Virus record (IMG/VR): IMGVR_UViG_3300035703_000208
Location: 1 to 38,188 of that record
Origin: a virus
Reading direction: 5' to 3' (one strand)
Length of the DNA stretch: 38,188 nt
Every line of letters starts with the position of its first letter. Within the stretch, counting starts at the first letter, position 1. Below the pieces are notes generated by a model. That model did not search any database and was not told the DNA's origin. It worked only from the letters and a program-made list of their open reading frames with translations. The translations under genes and the position numbers were made by a program. Of this stretch, positions 839 to 8,417 are shown piece after piece.

Positions 839-851
839 TCCCCAATGTTTT
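839..851 (-). promoter_or_regulatory. Conserved ribosome-binding leader, copy A
   Basis: On the minus strand this reads AAAACATTGGGGA, ending six bases before the chosen ATG. The same 12-13 bases precede two other genes and one gene-less site in the window. Its GGGG element acts as the probable Shine-Dalgarno sequence. Confidence 0.6.
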
Positions 852-2848: not shown

Positions 2849-3168
2849 TCGATTGTCACTGATTCGTTAAAAGAGCCAGACCAGAGGAAGGAACAAACAT
2901 CGCCAAACAAGTGACAATCGATAAAAGAGAGAGTAATCACTAAGAGAGATATATAGTTATTAGTATTTCCCCAATGTTTTTCACAAAATCATCTTGCCTA
3001 TTCCTCCCATTGCCCCAGGTCGATTGTCAGTGACAATCGACTCGATTGGCGTGACAATCGACTTCAGAAAACAGCCTTGGTTGATCAAAAACAGCAACTT
3101 GGTATTCATGCGATCAGTTTTTCTCGCTGAAAGATGCTTCCAGCTTTCGTTCGTCACTCGATTGTCAC
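2849..3168. repeat. Iteron-like array, candidate replication origin
   Basis: Six copies of the 11-mer TCGATTGTCA(C/G) lie in 320 bp: 2849-2859 (+), 2911-2921 (-), 3020-3030 (+, ending G), 3030-3040 (-), 3051-3061 (-) and 3158-3168 (+). The third and fourth form a perfect 21-bp palindrome, 3020-3040. AT-rich DNA lies at 2920-2970. The array directly follows the primase-helicase gene and its last copy overlaps that gene's stop codon. Apart from the leader copy I see no gene in 2740-3164. Origin function is inferred from repeats plus location; partition or repressor sites are alternatives. Confidence 0.6.
2965..2981 (-). promoter_or_regulatory. Orphan copy of the conserved leader (copy D)
   Basis: Seventeen bases identical to the leader of the PAPS-reductase-like gene, but followed by ATACTAATA where that gene has ATGCAAATG, and then by an early stop. 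No usable frame follows. It may be a relic of a lost gene or a transplanted regulatory sequence. Confidence 0.55.
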
Positions 3169-5360
3169 GCGATGGTTTCCGGCCTCTTGTACACTACTTT
3201 TGCGCGGCCTCCTTTTGCTGGCTTGATGAACTCTACAACGATCATTCCAGACTCCTGCAATGACTTCGCAGCCGCTGCAAATTGAGCTGTCGTAATCTTT
3301 TGATGGCTTCTGGCAATCTCTCGCTCTGTGATTTCCTCGCGAACCCTAAGCGCCGCCAGAATTCGTTCCTGTGCCTGATGCTGCTGCATATCAGCCACAC
3401 CATCTAGAAGAAGATTGCAGGAAGTCCGGGCGAGAAAATTTGACATCACCACAGCCCATTCAATGTCCTGATTCTCGATGTGAATCAATGCCCATTCGGT
3501 TGTTCCTGGGTCGTCTCGCAATCTTGCGGCTCGGTGAATCATTGCGAGCTTCATTGTTCTGGCTGCGACTCGGCACCAGACCCCAGCCCTTAGTTCTCCT
3601 TCCGAATCCATTCGTTCGCGAATCTTGTCGCTATGCGTCTGCCAGCGAGTAAACGCTTCGGGAGTCATTGCCAGCGTCTCAGGTGATGGAGTGTCACCCA
3701 TGAGTCCCTGTGTTGTCGGAGCCCATTCGATCCATTTTCGGACCTGACCCACAAGCCAGTCGCTTGGCGGCTGCTGCTCACTGATAACCATCTTCGGCCG
3801 GTCTTGGCAGACAAAGAACGCCAACCGACCGAACAAACCATCATCAACCTGATCGGCCGTGATTGACGAAAACACCTTTGGCGTCGTCAGTCCCAACAGG
3901 CACAAGTGCGGCTGAATGATTTTGTTTTTTGCCCCGGCGCTGTGTGCGGCTCCTCCGTAAGTTGTTCCTGCCTTTCCGTACATCTTCAGGAGGTGAGTTC
4001 CAATTTGCTTCAAATAGGCGTTTGCTCGCTTGTCCAGCATGGCTTCAAGCGTTTTGCCGAACTCATCGCAAACCCAAATTCCACAAGGCTTTTCCGCAAC
4101 GGTTGCCAGCAATCCATTCCCACTCTGAACGTCAGGAGGATGTGTCAAATCGTAACCAGTCGCAGCAATCAATTTCAGGATCGTTGTTTCGCAGGCTTCC
4201 TTGCCTGATCCTGTCGGAGCCATTACCACGTTGTAATCATTGGTTCTCAGATCAGTCTGGCTGCGAATTCTCCGGCCAAAGATCGTGCCGCAAAAACTCA
4301 GTGCCGTTGCCATGCCCATGACCGAGGAAGGGAACTGGGAAACCGTGCGATAGAACTCGTAAACGCCGCGGATCAATCCTTCCTGTGGAATCATGGCTTC
4401 CATGAACTCGGCAGTATCAGGTGGCTCAACATCACCGGCCAACATCTTTGACAGATCGACCGCGACTGGTTGCTTTCGTCCCAGCACGTCTTCAGGGACC
4501 AAACCAAAAGCCGCTTTGACGGGATCGTCATTGAATCGAGTGCAACAAAGGTAAGCAAATTTGTCGTATGAGCTTTCAGCCTTGAGCGGATCGCAGGACG
4601 TGGAAAAAATCCGCAGAGTTTTGGATCCGCCAAAGTTAACTGTTCCGCTGATGCTGCCTTTTGTTTTTCCTGCCCGATACCAGTCCTGAGCCTCTCCCCG
4701 ATTTCTGGCAAACTTCCAGCCATCTCCAGACAGAATCGCTTCCCATGTGTAAGACTGCTCGATGAAGTTCCGGGCCTTCGTCAACAGCGAATCACCAGAG
4801 GTATAGCGAGGATCGACAACAACCGCCTTTGCTGTCTTCTTTTCGCTTGTCGCCCGCATGTTCAGGAACTGCTTGTAAATCAGCTCCGGGAGCGGAGCCA
4901 CTTCGCAATCAAACGGCGAAATGATCCATTCATACTGAACACCGCTTTCATGGATTGATGGCGGAATCACGCTCTGTGCGGTATTGCACCCGAAGCGAAA
5001 CTCAACACCCATAAATCCAAACTTGGCACCTTCCAGAGAGAACTTTTCATCCCATTGGAACAGCCTGTGGACTGACTTAGCGCTACGATATGTTGGCGTT
5101 TTCGGATGACCGCAATCTTCCATCCACGACTCAACCAGCATTTCGCCTTGATCGCTGTCAAATTCAAGATCGATCAGGCCGCTGCGACTCCCCAACAAAA
5201 CCCCAACATTGCAGCCCACAGGCCACTGTGCAATCACTTCAGGGCTGTTGGTACATTTTGCTGGCCAGTCCTTGCCTAAAATAGAGCCGGGGTTTTTGGT
5301 CCCGGCTTCCATTGGACAAAGATGCCAACCGAGTTCAGCGAGTCGCAGCGCGTCAGACAT
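3165..5360 (-). CDS. Primase-helicase: PrimPol domain plus DUF3987 ATPase
   Basis: A 731-residue replication protein. Residues 1-150 match the bifunctional primase/polymerase N-terminal domain: GTKNPG near 20, the acidic pair in LIDLEFD at 62-68, and the hallmark PPSIHESGVQYEW at 133-145. A linker domain (WEAILSGDGW..GKTKGSISG) follows at 206-250. Residues 330-600 are a DUF3987-type ATPase with Walker A APTGSGKE (381-388) and Walker B WVCDEFG (429-435). The last 70 residues resemble a winged helix ending in a basic tail. It likely primes and opens the phage origin; no separate replicative polymerase is visible. The start overlaps the nuclease gene upstream by eight bases. Confidence 0.85.
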   Translation of the reverse strand: MSDALRLAELGWHLCPMEAGTKNPGSILGKDWPAKCTNSPEVIAQWPVGCNVGVLLGSRSGLIDLEFDSDQGEMLVESWMEDCGHPKTPTYRSAKSVHRLFQWDEKFSLEGAKFGFMGVEFRFGCNTAQSVIPPSIHESGVQYEWIISPFDCEVAPLPELIYKQFLNMRATSEKKTAKAVVVDPRYTSGDSLLTKARNFIEQSYTWEAILSGDGWKFARNRGEAQDWYRAGKTKGSISGTVNFGGSKTLRIFSTSCDPLKAESSYDKFAYLCCTRFNDDPVKAAFGLVPEDVLGRKQPVAVDLSKMLAGDVEPPDTAEFMEAMIPQEGLIRGVYEFYRTVSQFPSSVMGMATALSFCGTIFGRRIRSQTDLRTNDYNVVMAPTGSGKEACETTILKLIAATGYDLTHPPDVQSGNGLLATVAEKPCGIWVCDEFGKTLEAMLDKRANAYLKQIGTHLLKMYGKAGTTYGGAAHSAGAKNKIIQPHLCLLGLTTPKVFSSITADQVDDGLFGRLAFFVCQDRPKMVISEQQPPSDWLVGQVRKWIEWAPTTQGLMGDTPSPETLAMTPEAFTRWQTHSDKIRERMDSEGELRAGVWCRVAARTMKLAMIHRAARLRDDPGTTEWALIHIENQDIEWAVVMSNFLARTSCNLLLDGVADMQQHQAQERILAALRVREEITEREIARSHQKITTAQFAAAAKSLQESGMIVVEFIKPAKGGRAKVVYKRPETIA

Positions 5361-6710: not shown

Positions 6711-8417
6711 TTAGAACGGTATGTCATCTCCGATGCCTGAAAATTCACCGAACGATTCTTCCTCGATTTCTTCCGCCCACTCCGTCGGGATCTCGTCCAC
6801 AAATTCACACGACTGGATCTGGGTGTACTTGTCTTTTTTGATAGTCGTGATTTGTGCCGACATCCGGCCAGCGCCACGGTTCAATAGGCTGATGGCTTCG
6901 GCCACAGTCCCAGGCATCGGGGCCGCGGATCGGTTCTGCCACCACCCGAAAGCCTTCATGTGCGCGAAGCCTTCATGTTCAAAACAAACCCACTCGCTGA
7001 CCTTTGTCGTGAGCAATCCGCCTTCCGAGTCAACAGGCCTGCATTCGTAGTCGACTCGAAGCGTCGGTGGTGCGTCGGGATCATGCCGCTTGGTGTGTTT
7101 GCGCCAAGACGCACTGACGACAGTCCAAACTTCCGGAGGCGTTTGGCCTGTCAGTTGTGACGAGCCGTCCGCAGTTCCCTGATGATTGACAGGAAAGACA
7201 AAACCGCATTCGCATTCCCGAGCGTTCGATGCAACATCCAGACCGCAGGCAGGGCACGGTTTTCCGCGTCCGTTCAGCGCCGCCGCTCTCGCAGCTTGCC
7301 CGCGTTTTTCTTCCGACGCGCGGCCAAAATTCCTGTCGTCGATGCTGCCATGCCGTTTGATGTTCTCGCCAAAATCCAGAATCAGGCAGTTTGTTTTCGA
7401 CGGGTGAAGTCGCAGACCACGCCCGACGATCTGAGCGAACAGCCCAGGGGACATCGTTGCTCGCATGATTGCGATTGCGTCGACCGACTTGGCGTTAAAG
7501 CCTGTCGTCAGAACGTCGCAGTTCACCAACCATCGAAGTTCCTGATTTTTGAAACTTGCCAAGATGCCACTGCGCTCGATTGGCAGCGTCTCGCCAGTGA
7601 CAAGGCCAACACGCTCGCCTGATTCCCATGCAATTTTTTCTGCAATTTCTTCAGCGTGTTTTACTCCAGATGCGAAAATCAAAATTGACTTTCGATCATG
7701 ACATCGCAGGTAGGTTTCACGGCATGCCATCAACACGTTGTCGGCACCGCTGAAAACCGCCTGCATGTCCGACTCAATGAACTCCCCGCCGCGGGTCTTG
7801 ATGCCTTCCGTGTCAACTTCTGCGTCGGCCGCTTTGTTGGTGATCGGGCAAAGAAACCCCTGCTCAATTAGATCACCCGTGGAGGCTTCAAAGACAATCC
7901 GCTGAAAGAGTTTTGTTCGTCCGCACAGCGGGCCTTCGCCTGTACGGAATGGAGTCGCCGTGAGGCCGACAACACGACAGCGAGGATTCAACGACTTCAG
8001 TTCGTTGATGAACTGACCATACATGGTTTCATCGTCTTGACTCACTAAATGCGCTTCGTCGATGATGACCAGATGCCTCTCGCCGATCTCGCTGGCCTTT
8101 TTGTAGATCGACTGAATACCCGCCATCAGCACGTCGTGCGATGTCTGGCGGGAGTTCAGGCCGGCCGAATAGATTCCCACGCTAATCTCTGGCATCAGTT
8201 CCCGAAGTTCAGCCGCGTTCTGTTCGATCAGTTCTTTGCGATGCTGAAGAACAATCACGCGACCACCAAACGCCCGGGCCTGTTGAATCAGGAGGGCAAT
8301 CACCAGCGACTTTCCAGCACCGGTCGGAAGGACGATCAGGGGGTTTCCCTGTTCGTCTCCCAAGTAGCGCCAGACGGCTGTGTTCGCTCCGGATTGATAC
8401 CAGCGAGGCGTGAGCAT
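6711..8417 (-). CDS. DEAH-box superfamily 2 helicase with zinc ribbon
   Basis: A 568-residue helicase related to phage SSL2/UvsW-like enzymes. It has motif I LPTGAGKS (30-37), motif II IIDEAH (118-123), motif III GLTATPF (151-157) and motif VI IVGRGLRLHP (330-339). A zinc ribbon follows, with cysteines at about 388, 391, 402 and 404 (CPACG..CECG). The C-terminal 150 residues contain no recognised domain. It probably remodels forks or recombination intermediates using ATP. It shares one base with the upstream stop (TAATG), so translation is coupled. This helicase type commonly pairs with DUF669 and RecA-like ATPase genes, as here. Confidence 0.88.
   Translation of the reverse strand: MLTPRWYQSGANTAVWRYLGDEQGNPLIVLPTGAGKSLVIALLIQQARAFGGRVIVLQHRKELIEQNAAELRELMPEISVGIYSAGLNSRQTSHDVLMAGIQSIYKKASEIGERHLVIIDEAHLVSQDDETMYGQFINELKSLNPRCRVVGLTATPFRTGEGPLCGRTKLFQRIVFEASTGDLIEQGFLCPITNKAADAEVDTEGIKTRGGEFIESDMQAVFSGADNVLMACRETYLRCHDRKSILIFASGVKHAEEIAEKIAWESGERVGLVTGETLPIERSGILASFKNQELRWLVNCDVLTTGFNAKSVDAIAIMRATMSPGLFAQIVGRGLRLHPSKTNCLILDFGENIKRHGSIDDRNFGRASEEKRGQAARAAALNGRGKPCPACGLDVASNARECECGFVFPVNHQGTADGSSQLTGQTPPEVWTVVSASWRKHTKRHDPDAPPTLRVDYECRPVDSEGGLLTTKVSEWVCFEHEGFAHMKAFGWWQNRSAAPMPGTVAEAISLLNRGAGRMSAQITTIKKDKYTQIQSCEFVDEIPTEWAEEIEEESFGEFSGIGDDIPF

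Follow-up and report, generated by a model that had tools for sequence, protein, structure and literature searches.

Repeat array beside a Prim-Pol/DUF3987 primase-helicase gene as a probable replication origin in a family of uncultured phages

The stretch of DNA analyzed here, hereafter called the window, is a virus record of 38,188 bp. Family matches were obtained, among others, for an SF2 helicase, a Sak4-like protein, terminase subunits, a portal, a head protein, and a tape measure, all encoded on the − strand; the terminase, portal, head, tape-measure, and other matches identify the window as a tailed phage. A nucleotide search of phages with the window returned no match. Pfam confirmed that one of its genes is of the PrimPol/DUF3987 type, as originally predicted, and Prim-Pol and DUF3987 are the only Pfam families found in the encoded protein (E up to 0.1). 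Immediately 3′ of this primase gene lies an array of short repeats, whose features are listed in Table 1 together with those of the surrounding region.

Table 1. Features of the array and its surroundings (positions in the window).
Feature	Position	Strand	Basis
Promoter-like TTGACT-16-TATAAA for the leftward genes, outside the iterons	2760-2787	−	Read by eye
Iteron TCGATTGTCAC, exact	2849-2859	+	
Iteron TCGATTGTCAC, exact	2911-2921	−	
Putative unwinding element, the AT-rich core of the array (50 bp, AT 0.74)	2947-2996		AT content
Iteron TCGATTGTCAC, exact, (+) half of the perfect palindrome	3020-3030	+	
Iteron TCGATTGTCAC, exact, (−) half of the perfect palindrome	3030-3040	−	
Perfect palindrome made of the two preceding iterons	3020-3040, extendable to 3019-3041		
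Degenerate half-site TCGATTGGCG	3042-3051	+	
Iteron TCGATTGTCAC, exact	3051-3061	−	
Degenerate iteron TCGTTCGTCAC, abutting the sixth exact copy and in 11-bp phase with it	3147-3157	+	
Iteron TCGATTGTCAC, exact, overlapping the primase stop codon	3158-3168	+	
Prim-Pol/DUF3987 primase-helicase, 731 aa, putative initiator	3165-5360	−	Family matches
Codons 657-731, encoding the C-terminal winged helix (putative iteron reader)	3168-3392	−	AlphaFold2 model, fold matches
SF2 helicase, the sole other conserved neighbor (23/24 loci)	6711-8417	−	

When the whole record was searched for exact TCGATTGTCA(C/G) sites, six were found, three per strand, all clustered at 2849-3168, and none elsewhere in the 38,188 bp. 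The count and both orientations agree with the six 11-mer copies first described, as does the overlap of the last copy with the end of the primase gene. The palindromes fared less well: of the two perfect 21-bp palindromes announced, one is indeed perfect, while the second pair, TCGATTGGCGTGACAATCGA at 3042-3061, is an imperfect 20-mer. Two degenerate copies raise the array to about eight sites, and phased copies at the place matching that of the degenerate iteron next to the stop are also found in two relatives (L007 and L008). Judged by 9-mers present at least three times, the 480 bp following the primase stop surpass all other 480-bp stretches of the window that were tested (0/307). Several copies of a short site are, as in iteron origins, clustered at one place.

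AT-rich DNA does lie within the array, as had been claimed, and its core is unmatched by any 50-bp segment located more than 200 bp upstream or more than 600 bp downstream of the primase stop; by its AT content, it qualifies as the adjacent unwinding region of an iteron origin, melting itself being putative. The core also contains one of four occurrences of AAAACATTGGRGA in the window (839-851, 1145-1157, 2543-2555, and 2968-2980 (−); 0.21 expected). The other three directly precede ATG codons; the copy in the core is like that at 2543 with ATA for ATG, and it resembles a decayed translation start. GA/CT dinucleotide tracts adjoin the AT-rich core within the arrays of four relatives (L007, L009, L010, and L011), more weakly in the window near 2926-2952. 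The cumulative GC skew, suggested as a check, declines steadily with no turn near 3.0 kb; it is uninformative here as an origin marker, since the recognized genes of the window are all on the − strand and coding direction dominates.

The C-terminal segment of the primase-helicase (82 residues) is confidently predicted by AlphaFold2 to be a winged helix (mean pLDDT 86.7). A fold search matched many generic winged helices; the P4 origin-binding domain is not among the matches listed, which excludes nothing. Close to its 3′ end, the primase gene of the window and of L007 to L011 retains TAGTGTACA (3188-3195, − strand, in the window) despite a varying first codon base. A second copy lies beyond the last site in L009 to L011, so that the array is flanked by TAGTGTACA in these three loci.

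Comparison with relatives had been set beforehand as a refutation test. Primase searches of viral contigs yielded 28, then 53 loci; removal of near duplicates left 24 non-redundant loci with downstream DNA, window included, with primase identities of 33-76% where measured. One has to keep in mind that these are mostly metagenomic contigs without known hosts and that the rows are not independent; no primase relative was confirmed in genome contigs, and thus no host is inferred. We called an array clear when its best 10-mer had at least five copies at no more than one mismatch in the 500 bp spanning the primase stop. By this definition, a clear array of sites of about 10 bp extends from the primase stop to about +300/+350 in 21 of the 24 loci, and in these 21 its 10-mer occurs at most five times elsewhere on the locus, mostly zero to two times. 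The repeats are neither absent nor scattered in the closest relatives (73-76% identity), four of the five having a clear array at the same place and the fifth (L010) three weak sites. L016 likewise has three weak copies, and in L020 the usual array is replaced by an unrelated 17-bp-spaced tandem repeat of AGGGTGAAGT, at about +330 to +440 after the primase stop. This repeat is also frequent elsewhere on the L020 locus, whose primase has a His at the Arg680 position.

The repeat sequence is clade-specific, with a shared form of four to five variable nucleotides, usually TGTC, then C or A; within each locus, repeat identity is kept. In many loci, the sites occupy similar places (near the stop, at about +75 to +160, and at about +240 to +350). 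The AT-richest 50 bp lie within 400 bp of the stop, unmatched outside the array surroundings, in 21 of the 24 loci; mean AT peaks at 0.70 at +160, flanking DNA having 0.44-0.51. The only conserved neighbors are the primase itself (24/24 loci) and the SF2 helicase located upstream of it, every downstream gene being found in 10 loci at most.

We also sampled 16 annotated phages whose primases are distant relatives (about 20-28% identity). In five of them, Achromobacter phage vB_Ade_ART, Rhizobium phage RHph_TM3_3_14B, Stenotrophomonas phage Bhz54, and Sphingomonas phages Kharn and Lucius, an array unmatched by other tested stretches of the locus was found no more than 300 bp from the primase stop, with AT-rich DNA nearby; the records of Kharn and Lucius give one host for both, Sphingomonas sp. 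PM2. The array of Eidolon is weak. No array was found at the primase stop in the other ten, namely nine phages plus Synechococcus phage Ssp-JY40, whose four copies at +395 to +458 start inside a small annotated gene and were excluded from the array count. DUF3987 primases, thus, do not generally come with this layout.

Taken from sequence comparison, these observations support the candidate origin originally predicted, an array with an AT-rich core being found in most of the 24 loci, down to 33% identity. We consider it likely that the locus is the replication origin of the phage and that its iterons are bound by the C-terminal winged helix of the phage's own primase-helicase; by the same comparison, an origin appears better supported than a repressor or partition locus.

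That the array is instead a set of operators, through which a regulator (an RHH-like protein, another phage protein, or the primase as autoregulator) controls the leftward or the primase operon, seems unlikely to us, although it has points in its favor: the array lies upstream of the leftward genes and of the promoter-like sequence, palindromic sites are operator-like, and the first gene downstream (2580-2738) was originally read as encoding a ribbon-helix-helix protein. That assignment found no support in Pfam or PHROGs. The RHH-like protein was rejected as array binder because its gene is not conserved beside the array in relatives, which makes the primase's own winged helix the likelier binder. 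(The gene at 1786-2541, − strand, has a strong PHROGs match to phosphoadenosine phosphosulfate reductase, E = 3.6e-38.) More generally, the downstream genes are not conserved while the array stays with the primase. The promoter-like sequence, which a stricter promoter scan missed, is not overlapped by iterons, and an origin therefore fits better than an operator; nor would an AT-rich core flanked by sites be expected of one. Finally, L010 and L011 are 94-100% identical from +335 to +535, downstream promoter-like region included, while their arrays and winged helices differ.

A still less probable alternative is an origin like that of plasmid pRN1, in which a large stem-loop of inverted copies, rather than repeated protein-binding sites, would be essential. 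The pRN1 authors proposed stem-loops for the Prim-Pol/helicase/winged-helix architecture (PMC4234260), and single strands of three of our arrays gave stronger folds than any of their shuffles (z −2.8, −4.6, and −3.6); such an excess, however, follows from inverted iterons anyway. Direct copies occur in most loci, and in L070 nearly all sites (6/7) are direct, which argues that a stem-loop is not required; repeat identity kept within each locus also points to repeated binding sites. As for a centromere-like partition site by which a plasmid-like prophage would be stably inherited, iteron clusters may serve as centromeres and the site is conserved in cis, but the array goes with the primase and not with a partition gene, and neither ParA/ParB nor another partition protein was recognized among the proteins scanned, which include part of the small ORFs, which makes this reading very improbable.

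The replication origin proposed here would work like those of SaPIs or P4, with an initiator of another family. Indeed, the SaPI Rep helicase (and SCCmec Cch2) has short iterons directly downstream of the helicase gene, which its C-terminal domain recognizes, and primase and helicase domains are both present in SaPI5 Rep (PMC7581432). Our array likewise lies directly 3′ of the helicase gene, with a C-terminal reader that is demonstrated in SaPI and proposed here; unlike the SaPI Rep families (DUF927 or Primase_Cterm/D5), however, the phage protein carries DUF3987 and not a SaPI helicase domain. In the alpha protein of satellite phage P4, primase, helicase, and origin-binding winged helix form one polypeptide, with repeats at ori (PMC4234260). 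The same combination is found here, the winged helix being a putative origin binder, but with a Prim-Pol instead of the bacterial-type Toprim primase of alpha. ORF904 of plasmid pRN1 has Prim-Pol, helicase, and C-terminal winged helix, with an origin region directly 3′ of its gene; this origin is a stem-loop without iterons, for which no specific binding was detected (PMC4234260). The phage protein shares the three domains of ORF904, its helicase part resting on the DUF3987 match and a low-confidence model, while its origin region differs by the presence of iterons, an additional stem-loop being possible. The primase-polymerase of phage NrS-1 is another phage Prim-Pol, with a weak sequence and fold match. 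As in lambdoid O/ori, the phage would have a cognate initiator/iteron origin, the pairing being putative here. The lambda origin, however, lies inside gene O, whose product acts via P and host DnaB and is no helicase itself, whereas here the array is 3′ of a primase-helicase gene.

On the model of SaPI Rep and P4 alpha, the 731-aa primase-helicase would bind the iterons of about 10 bp in several copies, each through its C-terminal winged helix; sites flanking the AT-rich stretch would let the helicase domains assemble over it and melt it, and the Prim-Pol domain would then prime on the exposed strands. The array would act as the main origin.

Three observations point to the winged helix as the putative reader of the iterons. 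Two are cases of exchange, both noticed rather than pre-specified. Over 50-bp segments, L010 and L011 are 0.86-1.00 identical from −2600 to −250 and 0.94-1.00 from +335 to +535; between −250 and +335, that is, over winged helix and array, identity is 0.44-0.80. Their proteins have 97-100% identity over residues 1-640 and 70% in the winged helix. Winged helix and array, thus, seem to have been replaced together, with sharp boundaries; the sites of L010 being few, weak (n = 3), and degenerate, this pair illustrates co-replacement and not two well-defined repeat types. In the second case, the array of L085 is like that of L013 (30-bp segments 0.69-1.00 identical, from +12 to about +315), while its body is closer to that of L087. 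Of the six residues private to L013 and L085, four belong to the winged helix (Arg680Ser among them), and a TTTC core is found in no other locus. The array of L085 seems to have been exchanged together with the winged helix, with a diffuse boundary: the breakpoint with L087 is unclean, the winged helix of L085 having private residues in common with L087 and with L013 in equal number. Another coincidence, Arg684Ser in L045 against its TGCC core, concerns a single locus and was dropped as evidence.

In the six-member clade formed by L013, L014, L046, L056, L085, and L087, iteron distance correlates with that of the winged helix (residues 657-731, r = 0.62), and more so with that of residues 690-731 (r = 0.71, p = 0.003 of 720 permutations); protein segments outside the winged helix reach r ≤ 0.32, so that repeat divergence follows that of the winged helix and of no other segment. 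In a family-wide partial Mantel test, the winged helix (partial r 0.27) did not stand out from other segments (up to 0.53), and joint transfer of winged helix and array could be explained by linkage of adjacent elements alone. We only tentatively suggest that initiator winged helix and origin travel as one exchangeable, co-adapted cassette with fast turnover of specificity, possibly driven by competition or decoys. Ectopic copies of the lambda origin block lambda growth (PMC4488673), and a lambda/P22 rep-region hybrid escapes related plasmid-borne inhibition (PMC3349717); phages of one origin type might similarly have to face competition or decoys on the part of their relatives and of satellites.

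This origin family was not found described in the open-access literature, most subscription papers being outside this coverage. The present analysis gives a family of uncultured phages its probable origins and the initiator likely to act on them. It also predicts where origins may be sought in other Prim-Pol/DUF3987 phages, 5 of the 16 sampled cultured relatives carrying an array at this place. Stem-loops, and not iterons, had been suggested in print as the assembly sites of replication proteins of the Prim-Pol/helicase/winged-helix type, a view with which our reading contrasts. The matched winged helices and iterons make a ready test set for changes in initiator specificity, and, should the cassette reading be true, the clade-specific pairs would constitute a natural set for reading the initiator-iteron specificity code.
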